This document shows, piece after piece, positions 144 through 60,599 of a DNA stretch of 64,000 nucleotides. Every line of letters begins with the position of its first letter. Position 1 is the stretch's first letter. The stretch comes from Cliona cf. orientalis (lineage: Eukaryota; Porifera; Demospongiae; Clionaida; Clionaidae), in contig OZ005689.1 of NCBI GenBank assembly GCA_963930775.1, positions 7,998,798 through 8,062,797 of the forward strand, written 5' to 3'. Made by a program: the position numbers and the translations under genes. Under the pieces are notes generated by a model. It did no database searches and had not been told where the DNA came from. It saw nothing but the letters and a program-made list of their open reading frames with translations.

Positions 144-3100
144 TAGTAACTGCTGTCAAGATGGATATCAGCACTGATATCATCACTATGCCTATTGGGA
201 AGTTCATTAATGGTAAACAGCGATAATATTATAAATAAGTGTATGCATCTGTACAAAAAACATTATTATTAATGGTGAGATTTTCCTATTCATACCTACG
301 AGGAAATCACTCACTGATAATAACTGCTTGGTTTTCCTTAATACTATAGGCTAGCTTAAGCTGGAGACTTATCAGCTAGCATCGATATCTGGATCAGTTG
401 CACTGATGCCTGGAAAGACCTATAGCTAATCTACTTCTTGTACGCTAGTGTATGCAACCTCTAGTTTTGCAGGCATGCATAATAAGAGCTTAGTGGTTCC
501 ATATTAGCCTAGTAAATTTTGACTGACGTTAATTTCAAGCATTCACTGTATATACCATTTTCATGGGTCGTAAACTCACACATACTGAGCAATAATAATT
601 ATTATTATTGCAGATATTACTCATGTACACACTGCAGCAAGCCAGTCACATAATGTGCAAGTCAATATGTGCTCAATTGTCCATTATTAATGACATTATA
701 GTTCAATGAGATCATACATATATTCAGGTGGTCTAAGGACTGGGACACCCATTTCAGAGCATGATTTTAGCTGTAACTTTAGCCACCATATCTCCAGAAC
801 AATACATGTTGTGAACAAGGAAGTTGCACCATAAGATAGACCAACCATTTCTCTAACCGCAAACTAATTAATGGCCACGCCCATTAATTAGCTGCCTCCT
901 GGTGACGTCATGCGTAAAGGCTATTCTGAAGACAAGATCGCAAAAGGCGGCGGTGAAGATCAATCTGGACGACTGTCTCTCTAGGCCTTAAATAAAGTTT
1001 ATATGCCTAACTAATAAATATCACTGGGGCAAGTTGATCTGTCATCGTACTGAGCGGGAATGCCCCAAGGTGTGATAAACCTAAGGTCACACGAGGGTTA
1101 TTTACCTGAATATCTCCCGTCTCGTTCAACAGTTCTTCCTGCCCCAGGGCAGTATGGCTTAAAATCGTCGTTACTCGCTTCGTACAACAGAGATATCTTC
1201 ATAGCTAAGCGTCTTCATCGCCGCCTCAGCCAACCTCTGCCTTTGTACAGCTACTATATGGCCATGATCGTGATCATGTGACTAAACGTATTGAAGTATA
1301 TTGCGCGCACGTGACCCCTGTGTGGCGCGAGCGTACCCAGTCCTTAGATTACCTGAGATATACCTGGCATACAATTCCCTGATCTTACTCCGTTCCTCTC
1401 TGCAATAAAGGACATTACTATGAATAGTACTATTATAAAGTGAAGGAAATAATACAACTGAGCCAAATGGCTGCAATTGTTTTCAATAACAAGTATATTA
1501 TTATAGTATTACAGTCAGAATAATAATATATTATATGGAATTTTGAATTCTCTAAGGATCGAGAAGCTACAATATCATAGTATTAGTCAGCTGCCTACCC
1601 TTTCTTTCTTTGCACACGGCACCTGTAACTTGTAAGTTTCTTAATTTTTCTATGATGCCCATAGATATCCTGTGACGTTTAACATTAATCTTGCTACCTG
1701 TGCCCATGTATCTCAAAATTGAGATCTTTGCTGAGAAAGTTAATTGGAAATTTTGCCTGCTATTAATAGTTTTTGTGTACGAGTAGCTAATTAATACAGG
1801 ATCTGCCTCCCCCTCCCTCCTTGATCCTGTATTAGCTACTCATAAAGGTGGTATGGGGGGTAGGTACTGTGAATGTGTATAACAAGTTACAAGGCACATC
1901 AATCTAAATTTTGGAAAGTTTGAACTAACTAACAATGAATTGCATATACTTACGCGTATTAACATTTGAGTCACTGACTGTCTGTTCTGAATCAGCTGTT
2001 GGCATAGCACGATCGTAATTATTATTGGTAGTAGCAGAGTCCAACTTTGTTGCAGTGGAAGAATCCGAGGCTTCTACTGAAATGTCAGTATGATAGTATG
2101 CAACCCGTGAAATTGTATACACATCATGTAAATATCAAACCCTTATTCTAGGCTATAATAATATAACATTATCCATGAGCCACCTTCATGCTCTTGAATG
2201 GCTTGTAATAATATGAATCAGGCTTGAAAATAGCTAGGGTTATCATAGCAGGCCACTCACGCTTTTTCAATGTTGCATTGCGTTGCTGCGTGCATGCAAC
2301 ATTGAAAAACTGGAAGTGGCCTCGGGACGAGGCTAGAGTTATCACACTGAATAGCATGCTTACTTCTTCCTATGGCCACTGAAACAACTTTAACAAGTGT
2401 TATTATGAAAGCTGGAGATGATTAAGAGGATAATTATTATATCCTGTTCCCCCATCCCCATGATTATCTAGTTAATTGGAGCAGGAGCTTGATCATGATT
2501 AATTTTATGCAATTAATAACTTAAAGATACTTACTTGAAACGAATGTAACATTGTATTTAGTAGATGGTTGTCTAGTTCTATCACTGAACTTGAATTCAA
2601 TGCAATAGAAGCACTGGGGCTCATTCTCGACGGTAACTGTCACAGGACACCTTGCTCTCATTTTTATATCAGGACTAGGATTTTGGACATTATCGGGGCA
2701 GCCACTATCAGTTTCTGGTCCTTGGACAGGGTCATACCGAAGTAATAAAATATCGGCAGAACTAGTGCTTTCCAATATGCACTCTAAGATCCCTGTGGAC
2801 TTTTCAAATGTCTTTGTGATGGTATTATCAGGGTTCTGAGAGGAGGTCCGATTGATAACAACATAATTATATTATTCACAATAATTATTATGACAAATTT
2901 AAAGATTTTGTATTATCCACTTGCTTGTATGTTATCAACTTACTTGTATACAATAGTTTTCACTTTGTGCAAATCTTAATAGATCTAGAATGATCACGAT
3001 CCATACACTTTTCAAGTGCCTGTCACAATAATTATATAAAGATTTACACTTTTACACAGCAGATTTACCTCAAGCTTGCATGCCATATAATATTATTATA

Positions 3101-3195
3101 ATGTCATGCGTCCTGTATAATAGTATTAGCCGATTGTCGGAACAATTATCGTTCTCATTATACTCTCACTGGGCTAAATTAAGTACTTACACCAT
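144..3195 (-). CDS. Gene 1, left copy: Ig-like single-pass receptor, 3' end beyond the window
   Basis: Assembled from splice signals on the minus strand. CDS exons are 3195-3191 (ATGGT, then GTAAGT), 3019-2944, 2835-2535, 2076-1954 and probably 191-144. The first two give a 27-residue start with a hydrophobic core (WIVIILDLL), which fits a signal peptide ending in ENYCIQ. The third is a cysteine-containing Ig-like exon with LLLRYDP and QCFYCIEF. The fourth is a Ser/Thr/Asn-rich stalk. The 191-144 exon encodes a hydrophobic run (MISVLISILTAV) that I read as the membrane segment. Introns after the Ig exon are phase 1. A short stalk exon between 192 and 1953 and the tail exon (past position 1) were not resolved. 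The Ig exon starts with NP in phase 0, as in gene 3, so the two look paralogous. It lies 320 bp head to head with gene 2. The ligand is unknown. Confidence 0.62.
2232..2337. mobile_element. Small hairpin MITE, TAGCCTCG family
   Basis: Short inverted repeat whose right end reads as the reverse of CTAGCCTCGTCCCGAGGCC. Internal arms pair around TTTTTCAATGTTGCAT and ATGCAACATTGAAAAA. Related elements lie at 6720-6801, 29549-29770 and 58659-58722. It sits in an intron of gene 1. Confidence 0.5.
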
Positions 3196-3515
3196 ATTCA
3201 ATGATACTCCCCTGGCTGTATATAGCTGACGTGACCCGTAGTGTATTAAGTGTACCAGACATCAATCGCTATATCGCTTGGATGATCGAGAAGATAGCTG
3301 CATGTAGCGACTATAGCCAACAGTAGTACTGATATCAATTGCGGCTCCTCCCAACAGCCAATTAGGACATAATTACAATGCTAGTAATTTGGTAACGCGT
3401 GAATCGGACTGACCGTATGCTATTCTAAAATCGATTTCCGCGATTATCAGATAATTGTCTCTGAACGTCGATTTAAAACCAGCCGGTATATATCAGTCTG
3501 GTTTCCAATTACAGG
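3196..3515. promoter_or_regulatory. Shared divergent promoter region between gene 1 and gene 2, left copy
   Basis: This 320-bp spacer separates the two start codons of oppositely oriented receptor genes. Its counterpart at 54997-55341 has the same layout and most of the same sequence, with indels. No TATA box can be assigned with confidence. A bidirectional promoter is inferred from position only. Confidence 0.35.
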
Positions 3516-4926
3516 ATGGCACTAAGACTACATGCAGCTATGCGCATTGCTATTCGCTCTTTATCTGGTTCTCGAAGTGTGCTCGTGATCGTGATAATTT
3601 TTATTAATTTCTTGCAATCAAAATCAGCAGCTCAACTGTGTAAGTATTAGTTGACTAACTGACTATTAAACTTCGATCTTTTAAGTTGTTTTAATTAATA
3701 TATATTCCATTTATATTAGATGTTGACCAGTCACCTGTGAATGCGACGGTGAATTTGGGCATAAATGCCACTTTTCACTGCTCCTATCGATCCGCCGCCT
3801 CTGGCGATGGGACTAGCGGCACGATTCTCTGGTTCATGAATGAAACCCTGATACATGACCTGCCAAGTGAATACAGCGCGATAATATCGGCGGTCAGCAC
3901 GCAACGCACGGATGGAGTCAATGGCGTGAATTCTACGCTGACTGTCTTAGGGAGCGAGCTGACCGATGGTACACGGTATAAATGCGGAATTTTGGACTTT
4001 GCAACAGTTTCAATTGTAAATTCATCCGCTTTCGTCTCGCTGACAGTTCAAAGTAGGTGTAGATATAAATCAATTTTATTACCATGCATGATTAATAATG
4101 TGTGTCAGATAATTAAAATTTTTAACATTCCTTCACAGCTACTAGTAATAGATCAGCTAGGACATACTATGGACCATAGTAGTATAGATGGCTGATCATT
4201 GCAATAATCATCATTGCATGGTGTATCTATGTCCATGCATGCCATTCCTTTGGTGGCCCCTCCATGGGCAAACTTAACGATCACTATCACAAATTTTAAT
4301 TGATTATCCCATGATCCGTAGTGGACCATTGAATTTTCACAAGTATTATTATTATATTACTTTTACTATACAGTCAACACTGATTCTATAGTTCTCTTCA
4401 TGTTCACTTCAATTATAGAACCAACAGTTAATGTGCAAGAAGGACTATCAAGTAGAAACAATGGTAACTTTGCTTTCAATTTTGCTTATCTTCAGTTTTA
4501 TCATGATTATGCACAATTATTTTTTGTTTTTCAGATCATTATAAAATTATTGCTATAATTTCTATTAGTACATCTGTTGGTGTAGTATTAATCGTCATTA
4601 TAGTAAGCAGTTTAGTGGTAGCTGCAGTTTGCATTATTAGTCGAAAGACTTGTAACGAAGGTAAAGGAATAAATTAGTTTAACTTCTGTATGTGTTTTAT
4701 GAAAATGCTTTAAATATGGATTAAATTTACAGATCTAGACACAAAAATGGAAATGGATGCTAATAAAGCGTATGCAACAGCTAACGAGAGTGCATTATAT
4801 GATACAATTGCTGCTCCAGTTGAAGGTGTGGAACATAATAATAGTGTTGCTAATAAGGAGACAGTGATGATGACATACAAAAATGAAGCTTATGAATCAC
4901 CAGGGAAGAATATGAAGTTGGAATAA
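3516..4926 (+). CDS. Gene 2, left copy: single-Ig transmembrane receptor with tyrosine-bearing tail
   Basis: Five exons, 3516-3639, 3720-4052, 4419-4463, 4535-4660 and 4733-4926, join in phase 1 throughout and give 273 residues. Exon 1 is a signal peptide (core VLVIVIIFINFL). Exon 2 is one complete Ig domain, with Cys in ATFHCSY, Trp in ILWF, the YxC motif RYKCGI, and several N-glycosylation sequons. Exon 3 is a short stalk. Exon 4 is the membrane helix (GVVLIVIIVSSLVVAAVCII) followed by basic SRK. Exon 5 is a cytoplasmic tail with tyrosines in KAYATA, ALYDTI, TYKNEAYESP. YDTI is a YxxI site and YKN fits the Grb2-type SH2 motif pYxN. The start was chosen at the ATG directly before the signal core. 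It is a surface receptor by architecture, with unknown ligand. Confidence 0.85.
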
Positions 4927-5084
4927 CTGCATATGTATACTGCAGAAACCACGTACACAGGCAGTGACTCACAGGAGGCGTAATTTAGATAGTTTAATAG
5001 TATTACTTCCACAATACAGATCAGCGTCAATAATCACGGTAATCATTTCAGCGTATAATATTATTATTATTATAAATTATTGTG

Positions 5085-5760
5085 CCATTATACGTTGTTG
5101 GTGGCTGAACTCCTTGCATGAGCGTGGCTCCACTTTACGCTGGTGGCTAAGCTTAAACACCTTAAGCGTGGCTCCTATATAATTGCACTGGTGGTTAAAT
5201 TCCTTGAGCGTGACTCCAGTATATACGCTGATGGCTGAACTCCTTGAGCGTGCCCCCACTTACGCCAGTGGCTAAACTCCTTAAGCGTGGCTCCTATATA
5301 TTGCACTGGTGGCTACGGTAAACTCCTTGAGCGTGACTCTAATTACGCTGATGGCTAACTCCTTGAGCGTGGCCCCACTTACGCCGGTGGCTAAACTCCT
5401 TGAGCGTGGCCCCATTTTTATACGCTGGTGGCTAAACTCCTTAAATGTGGCTCCTATTGTACTGGTGGCTAACTCCTTGAGCGTAGCTCTAATTACGTTG
5501 GTGGCTAAACTCCTTAAGCGTGGCTCCTATTGGACTGGTGGCTAACTCCTTGAGCGTGGCTCTAATTACGCTGGTGGCTAACTCCTTAAGCGTGGATCCT
5601 ATGGTACTGGTGGCTAACTCCTTGAGCGTGGCTCAATCTACGCAAACACCTTCAGCGTGGCTATGGCTACACAGTCTTACGCAGGTGGCTAAACTCCTTC
5701 AGCGTGGCTACACTGGCTAATAATAAACTTCTTGAGCGTGCCTCGGAGTTTAATACAGCC
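5085..5760 (+). repeat. 36-bp minisatellite downstream of gene 2, left copy
   Basis: Roughly eighteen diverged units of about 36 bp, with the core GTGGCTAACTCCTTGAGCG and variable inserts such as TCTAATTACGCTG or TCCTATTGGACTG. The unit is a multiple of three, so frames stay open and read as a 12-residue repeat (NSLSVALITLVA). It starts about 160 bp after the gene 2 stop. A matching array follows the right copy at 56915-57690. Confidence 0.9.
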
Positions 5761-6719
5761 CCCAGAGAGAAAGAAGGAAATGGGGGGAGCGAGAATATTT
5801 TGGTGCTGTGGTACAGGTGACCAGTAATTTCCCTAAGATTAATAGCCACTTAGAGAATATGATATCACCGTCACACCCCAAAACAAAATATAATACATTT
5901 CCATCCCAGAATTGTTCGTCTTAATTATCTAGGTAATGCATACATCTTATATCTTAATACCCGTGCCCTATTCATATTGCATGCATGCCCAAATTGGGCT
6001 CCCGACATAAACAACAACACTATTATCTAATTAGGTCAATAAAATTTGAAACGTGAACATCGCTACCTAATAATTAGATTTTAAATTAGGTTTTTAGATT
6101 GAACTAGCACTGCATCAGAAGTTAGTTTTTCCTGAAGTTCACAAAAATTGTCTTTCTTGTTTGAGTGCTTGTGAATGTAGTATCTTTTGTCTATCATAAG
6201 ATCATGTTGGTAGCAACCTGTAGAAATGATAGATAAAGCCTATTCATTGCAATGACAACATAGATCTGCACACAATAGCTAATTATTATACCATATTGTA
6301 ACACTTACATGATATCAGTGCAGTTATGCCCACCTGCAACTGCAATAGTACACCTACACAGAAAATTGAAAGCTATGATAGCAAGTCACCATACAACTTT
6401 TGGTAGTTTCATCCTCTACAGGTACCTTTTTGCGTATATACGGCCATAGATAATGCATAGTCTAAATTATCTACGATACGGCATTTAAAAAGGTGGGAGA
6501 CATGTTGTGATATTTATGATGAGTGTTGTGATTAACACACTTACCCACTGGCATAATATTATGATTCTGAGATCTTCCGTTATTTCTACCTGTATGCAAG
6601 GAGTATTTATTAATAGATTTCATATGTATCCGGTGTACTAGTCTAAGGACTAATTCCTAATTAAATACTCTTACTACATCAATAACACTTAGTCAAAAAG
6701 TTAATGGTTGTAGTCCCAG

Positions 6720-6801
6720 CTAGCCTCATCCCCAGGCCACTCCCATGTTTTCGTACCCTTTTCTGCATGTAACATTGAAAAACATGGGAGTGGCCTGGGA
6801 A
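6720..6801. mobile_element. Small hairpin MITE, TAGCCTCA variant
   Basis: Inverted repeat pairing CAGGCCACTCCCATGTTTT with AAAACATGGGAGTGGCCTG. The same insertion is at 58659-58722 in the other duplicate, so it predates the duplication. Confidence 0.6.
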
Positions 6802-7722
6802 CTACATACAGAACTACATATAAATCTGGATATCTGCTTTAATCAAGATTTAGGGCAACTGTAACAGATGGAAAACTCAATCAATCTGATCACAAATTGT
6901 TGTGAGTAACCTCCATCGTTAACAACAGGAAACAGCTATTAAATGATGTGAATTTAAGGGGCTAACCATTAACCATTAGAGTAAGTGTTATCGATCACGT
7001 AACAAGAATTGTGGCCATACACATTATCATTGTGCAATTGAGAGTCACTCATGTGTGGTAAACCACAATCTGAAAGGGGCCGGGGGGAGGGGAAGGGGGT
7101 ACCGTATATAGTGTTCGGGGTAAGAGCCCGCATACTCCCGAGTAAGAGTTCATAATATACCACATTTCAAGGGATAAATGTTACAGTAGCAGCTTCATAA
7201 TAATGACAGTCATATCCCGGATAAGCCATATTTAAGTACCAATGGGTGCTTATCCAGGATACTACAATAACCAAAGCATAAGATGCTGTATGAATGGCAC
7301 TTACGTGGAGTTACAGTGGTACTATTTTTCTGTTCCATGAATGTGGAGTTTGAAGTGGAAATCAGCTCAACACCAGTAGCAGTAGGAGAGCCTGTTTGTG
7401 CAGTGTCATCTATTGTCATAGTGATGTTATCATCGTCATCAATTCATGTCACGTCGTTTAGATGCGTGTATGATAGCAGAGTGTATGTCAGTGTGTGCAC
7501 GTGTTTGTGTGTGGGGGGGGGGGGTGAGTATGTTGCAATTGGGTATGCGTATGTATATAATAATATTGTGACCCAAAGTCTTCGACTTAATGCTCAATGT
7601 ATATATATTAGCCCAGTCCTGAGAACTAGGCCCATGATTATCACCAGAACACCAAGCTAGCCTCGTGTTACACATAAATTAAAGGTGGGAATAGGGATGG
7701 GCACGAAGCTGTACACTAAGCC

Positions 7723-8069
7723 CAGTGGCGTACCCAGGGGGGTGCTCAGGGTGCTGGAGCACCCCCATCAGCTCTGGCACAACAGCCAGTTCAGTAGCTC
7801 AGTGACAAATATTGTTACTGATAATCGATGACTGGAAGCTAGCTACTACCAACAATAAACTTACTGGCCTCTAAAATTCGCTCCCATAACTGCAGTTTCT
7901 CATCCCTATTCGGCCTAAAACAGCCTTCTTTGTCAGCCAGCTACCTTCAAGAACGCGTTTAATTAGGGGTGTGGTCAATATTTTGGGGGCATGGCTAAAA
8001 ATTTTGCGCGCGCGCTTCGCGCGCGAATGTCTTAGCACTCCCCTCCCTCAAATCCTGGGAACGCCACTG
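7723..8069. mobile_element. hAT-like MITE inserted only in the left duplicate
   Basis: Ends are CAGTGGCGTACCCAGG and, on the opposite strand, CAGTGGCGTTCCCAGG. This terminal motif is typical of hAT-superfamily elements. The right duplicate has no element at the matching place (about 59706), which gives an empty site. The flanks share AAGC-like sequence, but an exact 8-bp target duplication is not clear. It contains a perfect GCGCGCGCTTCGCGCGCG-type hairpin near 8010-8030. Confidence 0.75.
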
Positions 8070-8804
8070 AAGCTAGCCATCCACATTCAGGGTTTCCTTT
8101 CAGATTATTTTAATGAAATTTGGAGCTACAATAATTAAATTTTGATAAGACAGTTGTAGGGATACAAATCTAATTGTGGGAGGATGGCATTTAGCAATCG
8201 AGGTACCCTTAGTAGACATTGAATTGAAGCTTAATCACCCCCTTCATGAATACTAGGAAGAATCCTTATGATTATGAGAATTAATTTTGGTAATTTACAA
8301 ACATGGCAGTTATATAGTGACTTACTTGAGCCTTGGACAACAACACTGAAGTGAGCAGACAGCTGGTTCATTTGGTCGAACAGTGCACGTTCAACACAGA
8401 AGAACGTTTCCGACACATTTTCCATGTCCACTGTCACTGAGCAACTTGTACTCACTCTCCCAACGTTTGTACTTTGACCTCTGCGGCAGTAGTACTCCTG
8501 AACCGTTGACACAGCGGTACACCTCTGCAATAACTGAGTTTTTATTTCGTGCTGTGCACTGCAAGTCGTCTATATTATCATGAAAAATCTCCATGATAAC
8601 CTCGCTGGGATTCTGTGTATAGTGGTAATAGAAAAGTAATACATGTACACTGTCACATGTAGTCAGTGATATACGGTGGCCCAGAAGGGCCATGTCCATT
8701 ACCCAATATAATATTTCCCATTACTAATTTCAACTTTTCTCATTACCAGCTTCCAATTTGGTTATTTCTCATTTCTGATTTTGAGTTTTCTCATTACCAT
8801 AAAA

Positions 8805-9196: not shown

Positions 9197-10541
9197 AGAA
9201 AAAATATGATACAATGCCAAGTGGTGCTTAAGGTACCATTAAATTGCGTGGGCGTGAGGTGGGGGATATGACACCTAAACCACATCAAAGTCATTAGTGA
9301 GGTGCATGTTGTGTAACCACGCCCTTTTAATTGCACAGGTCTCAGGGGTGTGGCTGCTAGAGCCGGAAGTGTTCATTTAATATCCTCCATGGACCGGAAG
9401 CCGAGCCGGAAGGGAGGGGCCAGGCCACGCCCAAAACAGCCCCACCCTGTTTCCCAAGGACCACCATTCTCAATCAAGTGCCTACTAACCACCGGATGTC
9501 CACCGGAAGCCCACAATCAATCCCAATTAAAACACACAGCTTCCTCAAGGCCAAAACACACACAAACACTTGGAGGCCGTTCTGCCACACCGCCCACACA
9601 AGAGCTCACCTCATTTCCTGTGTGGGCGGAGTAACAACACGTCATCGCAACCACATCCGCTTCAAACCATCGTCAGCTTCCGTCCAGCCGTACAGGCCCC
9701 TCGATCGCACCGCCGTACAGTGCCTCATTAACAGACATAGCCTCCTCCTGCCACGCCCCCAAAGCCTCCTGGACGGGTTCAAAGGTCACCACCGCATCCG
9801 GGACACGCCCACTTATCGCCGCAGCCACGTCCCCGGCCCCGATGTCCAAGCACTGGCCTGTGAAGCCACGCCCAATCGGAAGCAATAAAACCTGCATTAA
9901 CGCACACGCACACACTCCACACAGTGCCAGGAACACGCCCACATGCTTAATTAGGCCTAATTAGCTTTTTTTTTTTTTTTTTTTTCAAGGCGACCAGAAC
10001 ACTAAGCAGAAAAAAAAATTGTCCAGAAACCATCATATAATCGAGCTGGATGCATAGTGGAACCATACAATGCAAGCAGGCAGCCTAGATTTCAATTTTG
10101 TCAAAAGTTGGTAAAGGTCGTCACGTTTATGTGCGCGCGTGGCCCCACCCCTCACGTAGCGCGTGGGCGGAAACATTGCAAACGCATGGCTTCCCTGTAC
10201 AAACATAGGGGGAAACTTCAAAGGGCCGTAACTTTAATTCTAAGGCGTGAATCAAAAATCTGTCCGGTCAAATCTCTAGTTTCGACCCATTCTGCGTGCC
10301 CATGTAAAAATTGTCCCCCCAAGTACTCCCAAACCCCCCATGAATTAGATTATTTATTTAAATTTGCTTTTTTCAAGCTACCGTGCACACTAAGCAGAAA
10401 AAAAAAAAACTGCGGCACATAAGTATACGTACCTGCATTGTATAGGTTCGCACAAATTAATATGCACTTAGGCTTACTTTACATTGATTGTTTACCATGC
10501 ACATACATACACTGCAATACTTTATGTACATTTGGTATATA

Positions 10542-22157: not shown

Positions 22158-24956
22158 CTACAAATTAGAAATAAATGATTTATAAGAAGTACAAGTTACA
22201 GTTTTATTATCAAGCATGTTCCAATTAGACACAGTGTGAGGAAAGAACGAGTACATATAAGAATTTGTGTGTGCTCGCGGTCTTGACAGCTGCAGGGAGT
22301 GCGAGTTCCTGCTGTTACGACAGCTTGGATGGTATGACCAAGAACCTTCTGGGAAAAAGCAGAGGTTGTGGACCAGTTTGAATAGGATGCCTAGCTTCAG
22401 CTCAAGTCTCCTATCTTCAAGAGGTTGGACATCAACCAGTCTGAGCAATTCCTCATAGCTACTGTCCCACTTGGAGGTAGCCAGCTTGCAGGCAAACTTC
22501 TGCACCTTTTCTAGGGCACCTTTGTCCTTGGCCAGATGAGGGTCCCACACTTGACAGGCATACTCGAGATGTGGTCGTACATGAGAAAGATACAATTGCT
22601 TTAAGGATTCACGAGATGCTAGTCCGTAGAACCGCCTGTATAGTAGACCCAAAACACGTCTTGCTCTAGCACAAACAGATTCAACTTGAAGAGACCAGGA
22701 GAGGTTATCGGTAAGTAGCACACCCAAGTACTTATAGCTATCAACTTGATCAAGGGAACTCCCAAACAGCTGTAGTGGAGCATCAGGAAGTGTGGGGGAT
22801 CTTTTGCGTGAAATAACCATGAATTTGCACTTCGACGTATTAAAACTCAAATAGTTTTCAGTCGACCATTGTTCAATACGACTTATGACCTCCTGCAATG
22901 ATGCATAATCGGCTGCACAGGCAATAGTGTGGTATAGTAGAACATCATCTGCAAAAAGATTTAGATGGGATAGTGTGTTGGAAACAACAGCAGGGAGATC
23001 GTTGATATAAAGAAGAAATAGCAATGGCCCTAGAACAGAACCCTGCGGGACTCCTGACAGAACCGGGAGCAGGTCAGACTCCACACCATCCACCACCACC
23101 ACTTGCATCCTATTTGAGAGGTAGCTCTTTAACCACCGGATGATGCAGTCATCAAGACCAAGTGATCGAAGCTTTATCATCAGTGGACGATGGGGTACAG
23201 AATCAAAGGCTTTACGGTAGTCGAAAAAGACGGTACACACTTCACCTCCATCCTCTAAAGTCTTGAGCCAATCATCAGTGCACTTGATTAGTGCTGTCAC
23301 AGTGGATCTCCCTTCCAGGAATCCCCATTGCAAATCTGACAATGCTTGATGTACCTGTAAATGTTGAATAATTAGACCATGGAAATGTCTTTGAAGAAGT
23401 TTACTAAGAAGTGGCAATAATGAGATGGGGCGGTAGTTTGCCGGGGTTGAAGTATCTGAAGCTTTCGGGATAGCAACGATTGCAGATTTTTTCCATTGAG
23501 TAGGTAATTGTGCTCGAGATATCGAAAGGTTAAAGAGTTTAGTAACAGATGGAGTGATACTGGCTGCTGTGAACTTCAACATCCTAGCCGAGATCCCATC
23601 AGGTCCATTGGCTTTCAATACATCCAAAGATACCAGCAGTTCGAATACCTCTTCTTCAGTACAAAGGAGTTCAATTGGAGAAACAATGGAAGACTCTGTC
23701 GGAGAGCTGATGGGGAGATGCGAGGTATTAAAGCAAGAATGAAAGAATGAATTTAACAGGTTTGCCTTCTCACGGTCGGTTGATGCAGTTGTATCGCCAA
23801 GGGTAAGTGTTGGTATGGACTTTTGCTTCTTATTTAAGAATTTAACAGCCTTCCAAAACTTTTTGGAATCTTTCGGGTTGAGCTTCCTAAAATACGCCAG
23901 TTTAGCAGATCGAATATCAGCCAGAGTTTTATTACGAGCAATCTTATAATTTCTGAAACTCCCAGTTTTCTTCGCCCTTTTAAATAGCAAGTTCCTCTTT
24001 TTTATTGAATTAATCAGTGGTTTCGTAAGCCAGGGCAGGTTACGTTTGCTCAATAGGGTGCAATTAGGTATGAATTGGTTCATTATCGACATGAATTGAT
24101 GCATCCAATTTTCCCAGGTGTCGTCGATGTTTTGAGTCATAACAGTGGTCCAATCAAACTGCTCAATAGCCTCATTGGCACCATCCCAGTCAGCATAGGA
24201 GTATCTCCAGATCCTACGGCCCTTATTTTTAGTTCTTTGTTTATTAACCTTCTTATTAAAGACTGATAGAATCCCGTAGTGGTCTGAATTGGCAAGGGGA
24301 GGTACAGTCTCGCAAGTGTGCAGCTGCGAATCCTCACTGGTGAAAAGGAGGTCAATGGTTGAGTCGGAGCCACTATGATGAATGTGTGTCGGATCAGAAA
24401 CATGCTGAGATAAACAATAAAGTGACATAATTGATTCGAGTGTGGCATGATAAGGATGAAACTTGTCAGTGAAATTTACATTAAAATCATCAAGAAAAAT
24501 AAAATTTGAAAGAGAGCCAGCACAAATAGAATCCAAGTATGAGACTAAACTATCAAAAATATGACTACCAGAACTGGGTGGGCGGTAAAAAAGACATAAA
24601 TTAATTCTAAAATTATTAAGCCTGACTGATAATGCAAGGAGTTCTAATTGTAAAGGTGGATCAGGAAATACTGAAACCAATAAATATTCTGCAACATAAA
24701 TAAGAATACCTCCGCCATGGCGGTTTCTATCTCTACGATAGAGTCGGTATCCTTGAATATCTATTTCACTTGAGGTAATCTCATTGCCTAGCCAGGTTTC
24801 AACAATACAAATTATATGAGGGTGATAAGTTTCAATGGAAAATAAAAGAACATCGAACTTTGGTAATAAACTTCTAGCGTTATAATATAGAATAGTAAAA
24901 AAAATTACAATTAGAAAAAAGATAATTTTTTTTGCCTCACCGAAGTTGATGGTCAT
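22158..24956 (-). CDS. LINE ORF2: endonuclease/reverse transcriptase (L2/CR1 type)
   Basis: A 932-residue open frame without stops. The N-terminal apurinic-type endonuclease is marked by YNARSLLPK (about residue 25), IVETWL (about 51), YRRDRNRHGGGILIYV (about 73) and NSDHYGIL (about 223). The usual GDFN motif reads DDFN. The reverse transcriptase follows with NYRPISLLPLLSKLL (about 508), VFFDYRKAFDSVPH, GVPQGSVLGPLLFLLYINDL (about 636), the catalytic FADDVLLY (about 668) and DSYKYLGVLL. The C-terminal region, with CKLATSKWDSSYEELL and LELKLGILFKLV, is like that of L2/CR1 elements. It would nick target DNA and copy its own RNA there. The intact frame suggests a young insertion. Its start overlaps the stop of a short upstream frame (ATGA). 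Confidence 0.93.
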   Translation of the reverse strand: MTINFGEAKKIIFFLIVIFFTILYYNARSLLPKFDVLLFSIETYHPHIICIVETWLGNEITSSEIDIQGYRLYRRDRNRHGGGILIYVAEYLLVSVFPDPPLQLELLALSVRLNNFRINLCLFYRPPSSGSHIFDSLVSYLDSICAGSLSNFIFLDDFNVNFTDKFHPYHATLESIMSLYCLSQHVSDPTHIHHSGSDSTIDLLFTSEDSQLHTCETVPPLANSDHYGILSVFNKKVNKQRTKNKGRRIWRYSYADWDGANEAIEQFDWTTVMTQNIDDTWENWMHQFMSIMNQFIPNCTLLSKRNLPWLTKPLINSIKKRNLLFKRAKKTGSFRNYKIARNKTLADIRSAKLAYFRKLNPKDSKKFWKAVKFLNKKQKSIPTLTLGDTTASTDREKANLLNSFFHSCFNTSHLPISSPTESSIVSPIELLCTEEEVFELLVSLDVLKANGPDGISARMLKFTAASITPSVTKLFNLSISRAQLPTQWKKSAIVAIPKASDTSTPANYRPISLLPLLSKLLQRHFHGLIIQHLQVHQALSDLQWGFLEGRSTVTALIKCTDDWLKTLEDGGEVCTVFFDYRKAFDSVPHRPLMIKLRSLGLDDCIIRWLKSYLSNRMQVVVVDGVESDLLPVLSGVPQGSVLGPLLFLLYINDLPAVVSNTLSHLNLFADDVLLYHTIACAADYASLQEVISRIEQWSTENYLSFNTSKCKFMVISRKRSPTLPDAPLQLFGSSLDQVDSYKYLGVLLTDNLSWSLQVESVCARARRVLGLLYRRFYGLASRESLKQLYLSHVRPHLEYACQVWDPHLAKDKGALEKVQKFACKLATSKWDSSYEELLRLVDVQPLEDRRLELKLGILFKLVHNLCFFPEGSWSYHPSCRNSRNSHSLQLSRPRAHTNSYMYSFFPHTVSNWNMLDNKTVTCTSYKSFISNL

Positions 24957-25229
24957 TGTTGAGTCTCACAGGATTGTTGTAAGGGGTCACTGACAGGAGC
25001 TGGGGCAGTTTGAGATGTGTTAGATTCCACTGAACTTAATAAAGGGGCATTTAGTGCCAGTGTAACTCCACGTGCAAAGATGCTGATTTCTACCTCTGAT
25101 TTCTGTTGATTTCCACTGATTTCTCGAGGTAGCGTACGAGATTTCATTCGTTGCTGGCCCCTCAACACTGAGCCTGCGGAGTTCTGCCAATGTAGCTAAT
25201 CCGGCATCATCGTCATGCCATGATGCCAC
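24953..25229 (-). pseudogene. Probable LINE ORF1 remnant
   Basis: A 71-residue frame ends in TGA at 24955-24953, overlapping the ORF2 ATG (24956-24954). A second open frame covers 25229-25020. No ORF1 domain is recognisable and the element's 5' end is not visible, so the LINE is probably 5'-truncated. Confidence 0.35.
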
Positions 25230-29099: not shown

Positions 29100-29135
<36 letters not shown>

Positions 29136-54042: not shown

Positions 54043-54106
54043 TGAGGCGGGTTTATACAGAAGATGGCTATTTCTAGGTGCCTCAAGAGATATACTGCGT
54101 AGATAC

Positions 54107-54230
54107 TAGTGTTGCACCGATATGGCTTTTCACCGATAATCCAATTTGCCGATACTTACTGGCAAGCTTAGCCGATGTGTTTGGCCGATCCAATTGTAAA
54201 TTAATTAAGTAAGAAATGTATTACATGTCA
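54107..54230. mobile_element. Fragment of a GTGTTGCACCGATA-type DNA transposon
   Basis: TAGTGTTGCACCGATATGGC is followed by repeated CCGATA motifs, a pattern seen at the ends of hAT-like elements. No matching opposite end is found before the duplication boundary at about 54323. Confidence 0.4.
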
Positions 54231-54323
54231 TGATGTCAATGATTCATGTGTGGAAAAAAAATGAAAAAATGACAAACCTCAGTAGGCATATTTACCCCCA
54301 GTAAGTTTCAGGTTGTTTTTGAT

Positions 54324-54996
54324 AACATTATATTTAGTAGATGGTTGTCTAGTTCTATCGCTGAACTTGAATTCAATACAATAGAAGCACTGGGGCTCAT
54401 TCTCGACGGTAACTGTCACAGGACACCTTGCTCTCATTTTTATGTCAGGACTAGGATTTTGGACATTATCGGGGCAGCCACTATCAGTTTCTGGTCCTTG
54501 GACAGGGTCGTACTGAAGTAATAAAATATCAGCAGAACTAGTGCTTTCCAATATGCACTCTAAGATCCCTGTGGACTTTTCAAATGTCTTTGTGATGGTA
54601 TTATCAAGGTTCTGAGAGGAGGTCCGATTGATAACAACATAATATTAATTAATATATTATTATTCACAATCATTATGACAAAGATGTTGTATTATCCACT
54701 TGCTTGTATGTTATCAATTTACTTGTATACAATAGTTTTCACTTTGTGTATGTCTGTTAATTTTTAACAGATCTATAGAATGATCACGATCCATACACTT
54801 TTCAACTGCCTGTCACAGTAATTATAAAGTTTACACACTGTCAGTAGATTTACCTCAAGCTTGCATGCCATAATTATTATAATAATATTTAATTTATTAT
54901 AATGTCATGCGTCCTGTATAATAGTATTAGCCGATTGTCGGAACAATTATCGCTCTCATTATACTCTCACTGGGCTAAATTTAGTACTTACACCAT
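54324..54996 (-). pseudogene. Gene 1, right copy: broken and truncated
   Basis: The start exon ATGGT is present at 54996-54992 with its donor. The signal exon 54809-54723 has a TAG directly after WIVIIL and is 11 bases longer than in the left copy, so the phase is lost too. The Ig exon starts at 54611 and is cut by the duplication breakpoint at about 54324, just before its donor. The stalk, TM and tail exons are absent. Three separate lesions make function unlikely, unless an alternative start feeds the Ig exon. Confidence 0.75.
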
Positions 54997-55341
54997 ATTC
55001 AATGATACTCCCCTGGCTGTAGCTATATAGCTGACGTGACTCGTAGTGTATTATAATTTAAAAGATAAAAGTGTACCAGACATCAATCTCTATATCGCTT
55101 GGATGATCGAGAAGATAGCTGCAATTAGCGACTAGCCAATAGTAGTAGTGATCTCAATTGCGGCTCCTCCCAACAGCCAATCAGGACATAATTACTATTA
55201 TTCAATGCTAGCAATTTTATGTTGTGGTAATGCTTGAATCGGACTGACCGTATGCTATTCTAAAATCGATTTCTGCGATTATATATCAGATAATTGTCTC
55301 TGAACCAGCCGGTAAATATCAGTCTGGTTTCCAATTACAGG
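54997..55341. promoter_or_regulatory. Divergent spacer, right copy
   Basis: Counterpart of 3196-3515, retained although the minus-strand partner is broken. It differs by indels (for example an added TATAATTTAAAAGATAAA stretch). Confidence 0.3.
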
Positions 55342-56749
55342 ATGGCACTAAGACTACATGCAGCTATGCGCATAGCAATGCGCTCTTTATCTGGTTCTCG
55401 AAGTGTGCTCGTGATCGTGATAATTTTCATCAATTTCTTGCTATCAAAATCAGCAGCTCAATTGTGTATAAGTATTAGTTGACTAACTTCGATCTTTTAA
55501 GTTGTTTTAATTAATATCCATTTCATTTATATTAGATATTGACCAGTCACCTGTGAGTGCGACAGTGAATTTGGGCATAAATGCCACTTTTCACTGCTCC
55601 TATCGATCCTCCGCCTCTGGCGATGGGATTAGCGGCACGATTCTCTGGTTCATGAATGAAACCCTGATACATGACCTGCCAAGTGAATACAGCGCGTTAA
55701 TATCGGCGGTCAGCACGCAACGCACGGATGGAGTCAATGGCGTGGATTCTACGCTGACTGTCTTAGGGAGCGAGCTGACCGATGGCACACGGTATAAATG
55801 CGGAATTTTGGATTTTGCTACAGTTTCAATTGTAAATTCATCCGCTTTCGTCTCGCTGACAGTTCAAAGTAGGTGTAGATAATAAATCAATATTATTACC
55901 ATGCATGATTAATAATTTGTGTCAGATAATTTTAACATTCCTTCACAGCTACTAGTAATAGATCAGGACATACCATGGACCATAGTAGTAGATAGCTCAT
56001 GCATACTAGAATATTGTGATCATTGCAATAATCATCATTGCATGGTGTATCTATGTCCATGCATGCATTCCTTGGGTGGCCTCTCCATGGGCAAACTGAA
56101 CGATGAATATCACAAATTGATTATCCCATGATCCGTAGTGGACTATTGAATTTTCCATATTTATTACGAGTATTATATATTTTACTATACAGTCAACACT
56201 GATTCTATACCTCTCTTCATGTTTACTCCGATTATAGAACCAACAGTTAATGTGCAAGAAGGACTATCAAGTAGAAACAATGGTAACTTTGCTTTCAATT
56301 TTGCTTATCTTCAGTTTTATCATGATTATGCACAATTATTTTTTTGTTTTTCAGATCATTATAAAATTATTGCTATAATTTCTATTAGTACATCTGTTGG
56401 TGTAGTATTAATCGTCATTATAGTAAGCAGTTTAGTGGTAGCTGCAGTTTGCATTATTAGTCGAAAGACTTGTAACGAAGGTAAAGGAATAAATTAGTTT
56501 AATTTCTCTACGTGTTTTATGAAAATGCTTTAAATATGGATTAAATTTACAGATCTAGACACAAAAATGGAAATGGATGCTAATAAAGCGTATGCAACAG
56601 CTAACGAGAGTGCATTATATTATGATACAATTGCTGCTCCAGTTGAAGGTGTGGAACATAATAATAGTGTTGCTAAAAAGGAGACAGTGCTGATGACATA
56701 CAAAAATGAAGCTTATGAATCACCAGGGAAGAATATGAAGTTGGAATAA
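55342..56749 (+). CDS. Gene 2, right copy: single-Ig receptor with ITIM-consensus tail
   Basis: Exons 55342-55465, 55536-55868, 56238-56282, 56355-56480 and 56553-56749 give 274 residues with the same phases as the left copy. Order: signal peptide, Ig domain (FHC, ILWF, RYKCGI), stalk, TM helix, tail. Six residues differ in the Ig exon, and two of these changes remove N-glycosylation sequons (N to S, N to D). The tail has one extra Tyr codon, giving ALYYDTI. The second Tyr has Leu at -2 and Ile at +3, which fits the ITIM consensus (S/I/V/L)xYxx(I/V/L). The left copy has Ala at -2. TYKNEAY is conserved. The first donor reads GTATAA here rather than GTAAGT, so splicing of intron 1 may be weaker. 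Confidence 0.85.
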
Positions 56750-56914
56750 CTGCATATGTATACTGCAGAAACCACGTACACAGGTAGTGACTCACAGGAG
56801 GCGTAATTTAGATAGTTTAATAGTATTACTTCCACAATACAGATCAGCGTCAATAATCACGGTAATCATTTCAGCGTATATATTATTATATAAAATAAAA
56901 TTATTGTGCCATTA

Positions 56915-57690
56915 TACGTTGTTGGTGGCTGAACTCCTTGAGCGTGGCTCCACTTTACGCTGGTGGCTAAGCTTAAACACCTTAAGCGTGGCTCCTATAT
57001 AATTGCACTGGTGGTTAAATTCCTTGAGCGTGACTCCAGTTTATACGCTGATGGCTAAACTCCTTGAGCATGGCCCCATTTTTATACGCTGGTGGCTAAA
57101 CTCCTTAAGCGTGGCTCCTATATATTGCACTGGTGGCTACGGTAAACTCCTTGAGCGTGGCCCCATTTTTTATACACTGGTGGCTAAACTCCTTAAACGT
57201 GGCTCCTATTGGACGGGTGGCTAACTCCTTGAGCGTGGCTCTAATTACGCTGGTGGCTAAACTCCTTAAGCGTGGCTCCTATTGGACTGGTGGCTAACTC
57301 CTTGAGCGTGGCTCTAATTACGCTTGTGGCTAAACTCCTTAAGCGTGGATCCTATGGTACTGGTGGCTAACTCCTTGAGCGTGGCTCCTATTGGACTGGT
57401 GGCTAACTCCTTGAGCGTGGCTCTAGATACGCTGATGGCTAACTCCTTGAGCGTGGCTCCTATTGGACTGGTGGCTAACTCCTTGAGCGTGGCTCTAATT
57501 ACAGTGGTGGCTAACTCCTTGAGCGTGGATCCTATGGTACTGGTGGCTAACTCCTTGAGCGTGGCTCAATCTACGCAAACACCTTCAGCGTGGCTATGGC
57601 TACACTTACGCAGGTGGTTAAACTCCTTCAGCGTGGCTACACTGGCTAGCTAATTATAAACTCCTTGAGCGTGCCTCGGAGTTACAGCCC
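56915..57690 (+). repeat. 36-bp minisatellite downstream of gene 2, right copy
   Basis: Same unit as 5085-5760 but a different number and order of variants, which shows array turnover since the duplication. Confidence 0.9.
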
Positions 57691-58006
57691 CCAGAGAGAA
57701 AGAAGGAAATGGGGGGGGGTGGAGCGAGAATATTTTGGTGCTGTGGTACAGGTGATCAGTAATTTCCCTAAGATTAATAGCCACTTAGAGAATATGATAT
57801 CACCGTCACACCCCAAAACAAAATATAATACATTTCCATCCCAGAATTATTCGTCTTAATTATCTAGGTAATGCATACATCTTATATCTTGATACCTGTA
57901 CCCCATTCATATTGCATGCATGCCCAAATTGTGCTCCCGACATAAACAACAACACTATTATCTAATTAGGTCAATAAAATTTGAAACGTGAACATCGCTA
58001 CCTAAT

Positions 58007-60599
58007 TTAAATTAGGTTTTTAGTTTGAACTAGCACTGCATCAGAAGTTTGTTTTTCCTGAAGTTCACAAAAATTGTCTTTCTTGTTTGAGTGCTTGTGA
58101 ATGTAGTATCTTTTGTCTATCATACAATCACGTTGGTAGCAACCTGTAGAAATGATAGATAAAGCCTATTTATTGCAATGACAACATAGATCTGCACACA
58201 ATAGCTAATTATTATACCATATTGTAACACTTACTAGTTGACAAGATTGATATCAGTGCAGTTATGCCCACCTGCAACTGCAATAGTACACCTACACAGA
58301 AAATTGAAAGCTGTGATAGAAACAGTCACTGTACAACTTTTGGCAGTTTCATTCTCTACAGGTAGCATATCCCAGTATACCTTTTTGCGTATATACGGCC
58401 GTAGATAATGCATAGTCTAAAATAATTATCTATGATACGGCATTTAAAAAGGTGGGAGACATGTTGTGATATTATGTTGTGATTAACACACTTACCCACT
58501 GGCATACGATTCCGAGATCCACTATTTCGACCTGCATGCAAGGATAAAATTTAGATTTCACATGAGTACTTGTATCCAGTGTACCAGTCTAAGGACTAAT
58601 TCCTAAATACGTTTCATCGATAACACTTAGTCAAAAATTTAATGGTTGTATTCCCAGCTAGCCTCATCCCCAGGCCACTCCCATGTTTTCGTATAACATT
58701 GCAAAACATGGGAGCGGCCTGAAGACTAATCAGGACATTTGTTTTAATTAAGATTCAGGGCAACTGTAACAGGCGGAAAACTCAATCAATCTGACCACAA
58801 ATTGTTGTGAGTAACCACCATCGTTAACAATAGGAGTTATTGAGCTTCTCATAGCAGTAACAATATTCCAACACATGAACTCAACATAGCAATGAGCCTA
58901 TATCAGATTGTTAACAACAGGAAACAGCCATTTAAGGGGCTAGCCATTAGAGTAAGTATTATCGATCACGTAACAAGAATTGTGGCCATGCATTATCATT
59001 GTGGATGTGAACAATGTCATGTGTGCAAGAGTCACTCATGTGCGGTAAACCACAATCTGAATGGGGGCGGGGGTGCCAGTGCTGTAGTGTTTGGGGTAAG
59101 AGCCCGCATACTCCTGAGTAAGAGCTCATATACCACCTTTCAAGGGATCAATGTTACAGTAGCAGCTTCTATACAAACATAATAATGGAAGTCATATCCC
59201 GGGTAAGCCATATTAATTTTAAGCACCAATGGGAGCTTATCCAGGATACTATGATAACCAAAGCATAAATGCTGTATGAATGGCACTTACGTGGAGTTGC
59301 GGTGGTGCTATTTTTCTGTTCCATGAATGCGGAGTTTGAAGTGGATATTAGCTCACCACCAGTAGCAGTAGGAGAGCCTGTTTGTGTAGTGACATCTATT
59401 GTCACAGTGATGTTATCATCGTCATTATCATGTCATGTCATTTAGATGTGTGTATGATAGTGTCAGTGTATGCATGTATTTGTGGGTGGGTACATTGCAA
59501 TTGGGTATGTGTATGTGTATGTGTATATAATAATATTATTATGATCCTCTTCAACTTAGTGCTATTATTTGTATTAGCCCAGTGCTGAGAACTAGGCCCA
59601 CGGTTATCACCAGAACACCAAGCTAGCCTCATGCTTATCCCTATTCCCACCATTTCAATGTTACACACAAATTAAAGGTGGGAATAGGGATGGAAAGCTA
59701 TACACCAAGCCATCCATATTCAGGGTTTCCTCTCAGATTTAATGAAATTTGGAGCTACCATAATTAAATTTTGATAAGATAGCTGCAGGGATACAAATCT
59801 AGTTGTGGGAGGATGGCATCTAGCGACCATTGATATTACTTTAATTAGTAGACGTTGAAGCTTAATCACCCCCTTTCATGAATGCCAGAAAGAACCCTTA
59901 TGGTTATGAGAATTCAGTAAATTTATAAACATGGCAGTTAGTGACTTACTTGTGCCTTGGACAAGTACAACACTGAAGTGAGCAGAGAGCTGGTTCATTT
60001 CCATGAACCCACGTTCGACACAGAAGAATGTTTCTGATATATTTTGCATGTCGATCATCACTGAGCAACTTGTGCTCACTCTCCCAGTGTTTGCACTTTG
60101 ACCTCTCCGGCAGTTGTCCAATAGTATTCCTGAACCGTTGACACAGCGGTACAACTGTGTAATAACTGAGTTTTCGCTTCTCGCTGTGCAGTGTAAGACG
60201 TCTGTACTTTCCTGAAACACCACCTCACTGGGATTCTGTGTATAGTGATAATAGAAATAGGATAATAAATTAATATACTATCACTGACAAATATATAGAA
60301 TTTTGATCTCAGGAGGCCCAAGATTACGAGTTATATTTAGGTGCCCATGGGCGTTTACCCGGGACACTACGGTATAACAATACTATTCCTCGTCATAAGA
60401 GTTCTACCCGGAATTCAGAGGAGCTCCCCAAACTTCTGGTTAGATAGCCCACCCTCTGCCCCCCATATTTCAAAATCATAATGGATCCATCTTGCAATGT
60501 ATAGTGCTTGCTCACTTGAGTGTCTGTATCGCAGTAGTTTTCACCCTTTGTCCACTGAATTACCACCAGAATCACAATCCATAGTAGGCCAAAATGCAC
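58007..60599 (-). CDS. Gene 3, right copy: intact Ig-like single-pass receptor
   Basis: Six exons on the minus strand, 60599-60516, 60235-59950, 59395-59291, 58531-58496, 58291-58235 and 58143-58007, join in phase to 234 residues. Exon 1 is a signal peptide (MHFGLLWIVILVVIQW). Exon 2 is an Ig-like domain starting NPSEVVF, with Cys in VLHCTA, YRCVNG, NCRRG, STSCSV and FFCVER. Exons 3 and 4 are a Ser/Thr-rich stalk. Exon 5 encodes the membrane helix (VGITALISILSTS). Exon 6 is a basic tail (CYQRDCMIDKRYYIHKHS) ending NLI, without ITIM, ITAM or YxN motifs. The first intron is phase 0 and the rest are phase 1, the same plan as gene 1. Head to head with gene 4 (736 bp apart). The ligand is unknown. 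Confidence 0.78.
58659..58722. mobile_element. Small hairpin MITE, right-copy counterpart of 6720-6801
   Basis: CAGGCCACTCCCATGTTTT pairs with AAAACATGGGAGCGGCCTG, with a shorter loop than in the left copy. Confidence 0.6.

Follow-up and report, generated by a model that had tools for sequence, protein, structure and literature searches.

In the fuhc locus of Botryllus, the FF/FcoR system places a nonsignaling receptor beside an immunoglobulin (Ig) co-receptor with tyrosine motifs. In the available parts of the sources, Botryllus fester and uncle fester contain no known signaling domains and fuhc haplotypes differ in gene content. Vertebrate paired immune receptors (KIR, LILR, and FcRL) have short-tail and signaling-tail members with similar ectodomains in adjacent positions; the short-tail receptor carries a charged residue within its membrane span, and the long-tail member has an ITIM. 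The Hydractinia allorecognition complex, according to the accessible portion of the report, contains 41 Ig-superfamily genes with unusual V-set and I-set domains (PMC11999971). Sponges have receptors with Ig ectodomains, some of them with TIR or CARD, and Geodia has Ig-type adhesion molecules (PMC6208332, PMC11999971); in the sections available, the Ig-TIR, Ig/CARD, and Geodia molecules are reported as transcripts or single genes, without a chromosomal complex or divergent pairs. We found no description of an Ig-receptor gene cluster or of divergent Ig pairs in a sponge in the open-license literature, represented mostly by titles and abstract openings.

Here, we describe a locus of the sponge Cliona cf. 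orientalis with two complete pairs of divergent receptor genes, each consisting of a minus-strand (M) and a plus-strand (P) member. The window (the whole stretch of 64,000 nucleotides that was analyzed) covers the left part of a roughly 0.5-Mb Ig-receptor complex that lies on a single chromosome. The M6/P5 pair fits the FF/FcoR plan, while M1/P2 fits it only partly because the M1 tail has one YDGV motif. Unlike FF/FcoR, the M and P genes lie head to head and encode smaller proteins, the M partner has one membrane span instead of three, and the sushi domain of an FF/FcoR-type pair had no Pfam match in M or P (whole M1, M6, P2, and P5 proteins scanned, four of the five); the systems are compared by gene anatomy, and no homology is claimed. 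The short-tail M beside a signaling-tail P resembles vertebrate paired receptors, but the M and P ectodomain sequences are unlike each other, the M span has no charged residue, and no ITAM pattern was found. As in the Hydractinia Alr complex, Ig-type exons of one family are clustered on one chromosome, although the sponge neighbors add FN3-like domains, Cys-rich membrane-proximal domains, and some Death domains; the two complexes are compared by domain content and clustering.

Gene models and head-to-head arrangement

All gene models are splice models built from DNA alone. In the two complete divergent pairs, the start codons lie at 3195 (M1) and 3516 (P2) and at 61005 (M6) and 61335 (P5). The features of the window are as follows.

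1 to 3195, minus strand: M1, complete receptor gene (227 amino acids [aa]), open spliced model homologous to M6; exons: ATG 3191-3195, signal peptide 2944-3019, Ig-like 2535-2835, stalk 1954-2076, membrane span 144-191, tail starting at 48
2547 to 8634, no strand: block copy 1, from pairwise alignment with copy 2
3196 to 3515: gap of 320 bp separating the start codons of M1 and P2, candidate promoter region for both genes, from gene-model coordinates
3516 to 4926, plus strand: P2, receptor (273 aa), spliced model with all introns in phase 1; exons: signal peptide 3516-3639, V-like Ig 3720-4052, short stalk 4419-4463, membrane span 4535-4660, tyrosine tail 4733-4926
6084 to 8612, minus strand: MX, broken M6 copy at the right edge of block copy 1, with a frameshift in the Ig-like exon
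54323 to 54829, minus strand: M3, broken M1 copy; the block edge truncates its Ig-like exon, and its signal-peptide exon is frame-shifted and contains a stop
54323 to 60257, no strand: block copy 2, from pairwise alignment with copy 1
55342 to 56749, plus strand: P4, intact copy of P2 (274 aa), spliced model
58007 to 61005, minus strand: M6, complete receptor (243 aa), spliced model; exons: ATG 60992-61005, signal peptide 60516-60612, Ig-like 59950-60235, stalks 59291-59395 and 58496-58531, membrane span 58235-58291, tail 58007-58143
61006 to 61334: gap of 329 bp between the M6 and P5 start codons, from gene-model coordinates
61335 to 63423, plus strand: P5, receptor (392 aa), spliced model; exons: signal peptide 61335-61440, Ig 61536-61856, FN3-like 62226-62594, stalk 62909-62950, membrane span 63020-63127, tyrosine tail 63191-63423

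M1 is open over six exons and M6 over seven, with GT/AG at all junctions. The last exon of M1 extends 83 bp beyond the left edge of the window, which does not hold the whole gene, and the first exon of each M model, with 5 coding bases in M1 and 14 in M6, was placed by guesswork. The M1 model has one stalk exon, a short second one being a mere candidate. The membrane-span exons of M1 and M6 were identified by frame, splice sites, and homology; a search for strong hydrophobicity missed both, returning one wrong-frame candidate for M1 and none for M6. The preliminary description of this DNA had proposed a common exon plan with phase-1 introns, which fits every P intron and, within the M genes, the 3′ half, but not the 5′ half of M1 and M6, where the first intron is in phase 2 and a phase-0 intron precedes the Ig-like exon. 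These models rule out a phase-1-only plan for the M genes. Between the M6/P5 and M1/P2 gaps, 132 of 291 aligned positions were identical, with no clear conservation.

The duplicated block and its breakpoints

The block is present twice in the window, as had been claimed, at 77 to 89% identity per piece: 89.0% for 2547-5744 versus 54323-57567, 84.8% for 5099-6930 versus 57049-58835, 76.8% for 6915-7722 versus 58907-59711, and 80.3% for 8075-8634 versus 59708-60257. The copies have the same orientation; 46 kb separates them on one 37.5-Mb contig, and their flanks differ. A 1,001-base piece of the block, searched against the 217-Mb genome, gave at least two matches, namely the two copies; here and below, genome-wide match counts are lower bounds from one query each.

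The block had also been thought to contain two receptor pairs. Two head-to-head pairs do exist, but the block does not hold two intact ones: its edges cut through both minus-strand genes, leaving one intact and one broken copy each of M1 and M6, whereas the plus-strand gene alone is preserved whole in each of the two (P2 and P4). The broken M3 and MX rule out a copying of two whole pairs. MX still matches M6 in its stalk, membrane-span, and tail exons; the right edge of the block lies just 5′ of the M6 Ig-like exon and so leaves MX without a findable signal-peptide exon, and none was found by tblastn across 124 kb. M1/P2 and M6/P5 are two pairs older than the block duplication, and the later duplication copied one P gene intact and broke M genes at its edges. 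Since each end of the block has one broken M copy out of two while P is kept, M may be dispensable.

Ectodomains and tails of the P and M products

Judged by sequence, P2, P4, and P5 are members of the Ig superfamily, with a predicted V-like domain that has the B-strand Cys, the Trp, and the Y-x-C end; C20, W37, Y86, and C88 are invariant in all three. Whole proteins matched Pfam Ig_3 at 8.6e-5 (P2) and 1.7e-4 (P5), both below the curated cutoff, and a profile of the three P Ig exons matched antibody V domains in PDB, from 6.9e-5. The FN3-like exon of P5 was assigned by eye and had no Pfam match. P2 and P5 are 60 to 62% identical, with a dN/dS of 0.17 in the Ig exon, while P2 and P4 gave 0.33, based on 19 changes; neither dN/dS comparison showed a sign of diversifying selection on the P genes. 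The plus-strand members had been described as having tyrosine-motif tails, and each tail indeed has several tyrosines, with NxAY and Yxx[ILV] in all three and YxN in P2 and P4. One added Tyr codon in P4 relative to P2 changes ALYDTI to LYYDTI and creates an ITIM pattern, found in this one of the three P genes and also produced by 9.9% of 20,000 shuffled P4 tails. No ITAM pattern was found in the M and P tails. By eye, NxAY tails also occur on other receptors in the genome (L027, L028, L029, and L035), besides weak matches. The tail is thus not specific to P genes, and its presence on membrane proteins with other ectodomains means that it is no marker of immunity.

M1 and M6 are homologous but only 27% identical. 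Their Ig-like exons aligned with a score of 73 (shuffled mean, 24.5; standard deviation, 4.3), reached by none of 2,000 shuffles, and the signal-peptide stretch is likewise conserved (0 of 2,000). Compared with the 60 to 62% of P2/P5, this identity suggests that the M ectodomains diverged more than P over a presumably equal time. Neither M1 nor M6 matched Pfam (limit, E of 5) or PDB sequences, and an M profile matched outside the window only at an E value of 0.45 or worse. Their AlphaFold2 models were all strand, with pLDDT values of 62.6 and 64.8. All but 2 of the 50 structure matches listed for M1 were antibody or T-cell-receptor chains, while MHC, PD-L1, and other Ig chains made up most of those listed for M6, next to some non-Ig structures (CBM21 and ribosome); TMq values ranged from 0.36 to 0.66, and none of the matches reached an E value of 0.001. 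The M ectodomain perhaps is a diverged Ig-like domain unlike that of P. Its identification with the membrane-proximal domain of the neighbors was rejected (hhalign probability, 0.15%).

The M stalk is Ser/Thr-rich. The membrane spans of M1 (IVMISVLISILTAVTSFVT) and M6 (VLLQLQVGITALISILSTS) have no charged residue inside, although an Arg borders the M1 span. The M tails are short, and those of M1 and M6 are unlike each other. A motif-free minus-strand tail, as first described, applies to M6, with no Yxx[ILV], but not to M1, with one YxxV (YDGV). The first reading of similar ectodomains with opposite tails is unsupported, because M and P are not detectably alike: hhalign gave a probability of 0.6%, and the M1/P2 and M6/P2 alignment scores were reached by 1,724 and 1,075 of 2,000 shuffles, respectively. 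A homology of M to P was therefore rejected, and the opposite-tail part fares no better, with no ITAM pattern found and an ITIM pattern in P4 only.

The surrounding receptor cluster

With an Ig-type exon of a neighboring gene as the query, we found at least 50 matching places in the genome, of which 34 lie around the window (C1:7.974-8.461 Mb), versus 0.11 expected at random in 0.49 Mb; 13 others lie at C1:11.265-11.808 Mb, 2 on C18, and 1 on C5. The receptor cluster proposed in the preliminary description thus holds, and on these matches it is a chromosomal cluster of apparently related Ig receptors, as in invertebrate allorecognition complexes. Further paralogs, whose lack would have spoken against it, were missing as close relatives only: in single-exon genome searches, close copies of the P-type and M-type exons turned up within the window alone. 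The P exon searches gave two distant Ig relatives on the same contig, and P was linked weakly to the neighbors (E values of 0.0017 and 0.0078).

The neighbors combine Ig-type, FN3-like, and Cys-rich membrane-proximal domains, sometimes with a Death domain. Their Ig nature was judged from subthreshold Pfam matches and Cys-Trp-Cys patterns: 3 of 10 frames scanned had an Ig-family best match, all under cutoffs, and the query exon itself had no Pfam match. The membrane-proximal domain gave at least 38 matches, all 38 on C1, with 17 at 8.084-8.460 Mb and 21 in a second cluster 3 Mb away (11.240-11.822 Mb). Pfam Death was matched in one neighbor at 23.7 bits (cutoff, 22.6). With 150 of 422 Death candidates scored, 4 of the 17 genes of this cluster have a same-strand match to the Death exon 1.1 to 2.2 kb downstream of their membrane-proximal exon; such a match is also present in the one of the 21 genes of the second cluster that was checked. 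The end of the plus-strand L008 gene had no Pfam Death match. Further head-to-head receptor genes occur at L008 and L056, the latter pair being 76 to 77% identical across two Ig exons. The membrane-proximal exons of this cluster point both ways, with 12 of the 17 encoded by the minus strand and 5 by the plus strand, so that a few head-to-head cases require no particular explanation.

Discussion

Our preferred reading, to which we give about even chances, is that the sponge has an Ig-receptor complex in which divergent genes form receptor/co-receptor pairs and which would serve recognition. We infer that each M/P pair would form a two-part surface receptor, jointly switched on from one promoter region. 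P would be the signaling chain, its V-like Ig domain binding the ligand and its tail tyrosines, once phosphorylated, docking SH2 or PTB proteins. M, with its short tail, diverged ectodomain, and Ser/Thr-rich stalk, may serve P as a co-receptor, a ligand-binding partner, or a decoy. Death domains would carry the signal of some neighbors, so that the complex as a whole would serve the recognition of cells (self/nonself) or microbes. The narrower proposal of an allorecognition or immune complex, in which tyrosine-tailed P and fast-changing M form two-gene receptors beside Death-domain receptors, is unlikely.

M and P could instead be mere neighbors, with P an everyday receptor for tissue adhesion or docking and M an unrelated small surface protein sharing its promoter region. 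The lack of a detectable relation between the two ectodomains and the NxAY tails on other receptors agree with this, but the arrangement occurs twice at near-equal spacing despite identities of 27% (M) and about 60% (P), and the pairs sit in a receptor cluster; we regard this explanation as somewhat unlikely, albeit the most credible of the alternatives. It is less plausible still that the M genes are decaying cluster members and P alone is functional. Decay would fit the broken state of two of the four M copies, the lack of any M domain match in Pfam or PDB sequences, and the difference between the M1 and M6 tails, yet the six and seven open exons with GT/AG throughout, the conserved signal-peptide stretch, and the six synonymous versus two nonsynonymous changes between the Ig-like exons of M1 and M3 argue against decay.

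An assembly artefact, with two haplotypes set side by side as the duplicated block, seems very improbable. Sponges can be highly heterozygous, and redundancy exists in this assembly, since mitochondrial sequence forms a separate contig and another contig carries two copies of its atp9 at a distance of 19,633 bp. Outside the P exons, however, substitutions between the block copies amount to 5.7% to 14.7% in five stretches, the MX exon falling in the last of these, and gaps are numerous; the breakpoints of the copies lie inside genes, and 46 kb and different flanks separate them on the one contig. In the 19,633-bp mitochondrial contig, frames read by eye (5,000 bases) gave cob-atp9-nad4-nad4L. 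This atp9 points to a sponge, the gene being reported for the mtDNA of every analyzed demosponge except one, according to the available part of the source (PMC2444032).

The locus, inferred in the preliminary description to be a species-specific recognition cluster, is a candidate for sponge recognition of self, strangers, or microbes. In the accessible part of a report on grafts in a demosponge, genes for adhesion, apoptosis, or aggregation factors were not enriched as had been expected (PMC5450542). A mapped Ig-receptor complex with divergent pairs and Death-domain neighbors offers a concrete locus for studies of sponge recognition. It would also place a two-gene receptor plan in one of the earliest-branching animal phyla. 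If the narrower, unlikely proposal of an allorecognition or immune complex is true, the receptor-plus-co-receptor plan of the Botryllus type would also have arisen, or already existed, near the base of the animals.

Organization of the duplicated block

The preliminary description had reported a block present twice in the window. A self-comparison of the window bore this out, placing the two copies in the same orientation at 2547-8634 (copy 1) and 54323-60257 (copy 2). The 46 kb that separates them contains class C receptor exons and a retrotransposon.

Features between the block copies
22158-24965, minus strand: non-LTR retrotransposon whose open 935-aa frame encodes endonuclease and reverse transcriptase domains
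29790-50020, plus strand: class C receptor exons, among them an ANF-receptor-like N-terminal exon (E 0.00073, under the cut-off) and a 7tm_3 exon (E 1.4e-15)

A dispersed repeat also occurs twice in the window (9228-9985 and 28356-29122, 96.5% identity), and its translated letters reappear in one region of the surrounding cluster (L056, 3820-4479).

Splice models were made by hand, with frame, acceptor and donor verified at each junction, and the genes are predicted ones. The plus-strand receptor genes P2 and P4 encode a signal peptide, a V-like Ig domain, a short stalk, a membrane span and a tyrosine-containing tail, with phase 1 introns throughout; the third plus-strand gene, P5, has an added FN3-like exon, assigned by eye. 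The two complete minus-strand genes, M1 and M6, consist of a tiny ATG exon, a signal-peptide exon, an Ig-like exon of 286 to 301 bases, a Ser/Thr-rich stalk, a membrane span and a short tail, and their introns are in phase 2 after the ATG exon, phase 0 after the signal-peptide exon and phase 1 from the Ig-like exon onward. M1 extends 83 bp beyond the left window edge. Approximately 1.2 to 1.4 kb left of the window (L005) lies a second copy of the M1 membrane-span and tail region, 72% similar, whose tail soon runs into a stop; it is a relic or an alternative end.

The left edge of the block falls within the Ig-like exon of M1, and its right edge lies just upstream of the corresponding exon of M6. 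Copy 1 contains the 5' part of the intact M1, the intact P2 and MX, a 5'-cut and frameshifted copy of M6. Copy 2 contains M3, a 3'-cut copy of M1 with a broken signal peptide, together with the intact P4 and the body of the intact M6. Duplication of one segment from an ancestral row M1-P-M6-P5 would leave this content. The earlier observation that Ig-receptor pairs were duplicated as a block is therefore partly confirmed: the block was copied, but what it contributed is an extra P4 beside a dead M gene, and the two pairs, M1/P2 and M6/P5, are older.

Divergence between the copies was measured over five stretches, all outside the P exons. Substitutions amounted to 6.0%, 8.1% and 5.7% in the left and middle stretches and rose at the right end to 10.4% and then 14.7%, the last stretch taking in the MX exon. 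Either rates therefore differ among parts of the block, or gene conversion has kept the P-gene part alike. Between P2 and P4 there are 9 synonymous and 10 nonsynonymous differences (dS 0.048, dN 0.016). The arrangement of a minisatellite with units of about 36 bp, found 3' of P2 (5099-5744) and of P4 (56923-57687), differs between the copies.

The surrounding receptor cluster

The window occupies positions 7,998,798-8,062,797 of a 37.5-Mb contig (C1) of the 217-Mb genome. When individual exons were used as queries, neither P-type nor M-type exons had close copies elsewhere in the genome, and the P-type Ig domain had two distant relatives on C1 (8.28 Mb, E 0.0017; 8.52 Mb, E 0.0078). An Ig-type exon from the neighboring receptor L008, which lies 24 kb beyond the right window edge, gave at least 50 genomic matches at E ≤0.01 with 69 scored. 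Of these 50, 34 fall in one group that holds the window (C1:7,974,158-8,461,192), 13 in C1:11.265-11.808 Mb, 2 on C18 and 1 on C5. The proposed receptor cluster is thereby upheld and enlarged. The query exon had no Pfam match and shows a Cys-Trp-Cys pattern; two of its matched relatives had sub-threshold Ig_3 matches (0.0018 and 0.0066).

The neighbors are larger than the M and P genes and, judged by eye in L008, L003 and L004, combine Ig-type and FN3-like exons with a Cys-rich membrane-proximal domain and, in the cases where one was recognized, a membrane span; an FN3 match in another neighbor (L012) was under the cut-off (0.011). The membrane-proximal domain had at least 38 matches, all of them on C1, 17 in the window's cluster and 21 in a second one. 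This second cluster of the same family (C1:11.240-11.822 Mb) has at least 21 membrane-proximal and 13 Ig-type exons. Further head-to-head receptor genes occur at L008 and at L056, where two Ig genes are 76 to 77% identical.

In one neighbor, a Death domain exceeds the Pfam cut-off; the head-to-head partner of this gene had no Pfam match at the corresponding place. Six Death matches lie in 8.07-8.30 Mb, four of them 1.1 to 2.2 kb after a same-strand membrane-proximal exon and two not; the one case examined in the second cluster has the same arrangement. Death domains are widespread in this genome (at least 119 matches, with 150 of 422 candidates scored).

Ectodomains and cytoplasmic tails

Paired receptors had been described here. 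The pairs M1/P2 and M6/P5 stand, but M and P have no detectable relatedness to each other: the profile-profile probability was 0.6%, and their alignment scores were reached by 1,724 and 1,075 of 2,000 shuffles. M1 is homologous to M6: their alignment score, 73, was reached by none of 2,000 shuffles, which averaged 24.5 (standard deviation 4.3). From one pair to the other, identity is 27% for the M ectodomains and about 60% for the P Ig domains. M had no sequence match in Pfam or PDB. AlphaFold2 models of M1 and M6, built from a three-row input alignment, were all-strand and of low confidence (pLDDT 62.6 and 64.8). Among the 50 best fold matches listed for M1, all but 2 were antibody or T-cell-receptor entries; those listed for M6 were for the most part Ig chains, MHC and PD-L1 among them, together with some non-Ig folds. 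Neither search gave a match with E ≤0.001. Since the models match mostly Ig entries, the M domain is likely, though unproven, to be Ig-like.

No ITAM or hemITAM pattern was found in the M or P tails. Yxx[ILV] is absent from M6, occurs once each in P2, P4 and M1, and has three occurrences in P5, one of them at the membrane edge. Each P tail has two NxAY motifs, which M1 and M6 lack, and YxN is present in P2 and P4. An ITIM pattern, created by one additional Tyr codon, appears in P4 only; 9.9% of 20,000 shuffled P4 tails also produced one, so this pattern is a lead only. Repeated NxAY motifs were seen by eye in the tails of membrane proteins with other ectodomains (L027, L028 and L035 on C7; L029 on C15), and thus NxAY looks like a tyrosine docking motif of more general use in this genome. 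At C19:651-665 kb (L026, L030 and L034) there are three tandem receptor-kinase genes whose ectodomains, judged by eye, are Cys-rich and Frizzled-like.

Mitochondrial sequences in the assembly

When the genome was searched with ATP synthase subunit c, at least 13 matches came up. Three of these are 78-aa open frames of atp9: one lies on a contig of 19,633 bp, and C111 carries the other two, exactly 19,633 bp apart. The C111 spacing looks like a head-to-tail joining of mitochondrial copies during assembly. Read with code 4, a 5,000-base piece of the 19,633-bp contig contains cob, atp9, nad4 and nad4L, named by eye. Fungi and some protists also have a mitochondrial atp9, but are not known to have animal-type receptors like these. 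According to one account, the gene is mitochondrial in all analyzed demosponges but Amphimedon queenslandica (PMC2444032). On this evidence, the source organism is very probably a sponge, and a demosponge is likely.

A two-gene receptor model

The best functional model is a two-gene receptor, in which M and P of a pair would be driven from one promoter region, P would be the signaling chain and M its nonsignaling partner. Counted against this model are the loss of M copies while P stayed and the fact that no diversifying selection was seen on P. The nearest known plan is that of Botryllus, where, as one account describes it, the gene of each fester-family receptor lies next to, and is coexpressed with, that of a cognate motif-bearing Ig coreceptor (PMC12065747). 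The M/P pairs resemble that system in their working plan, which does not make them members of it; no sushi domain was found in the four of five proteins scanned whole against Pfam. No Ig-receptor complex in sponges was found in the literature searched. Overall, the locus appears to be an invertebrate Ig-receptor complex, of a known kind and, as far as that literature goes, new for Porifera.
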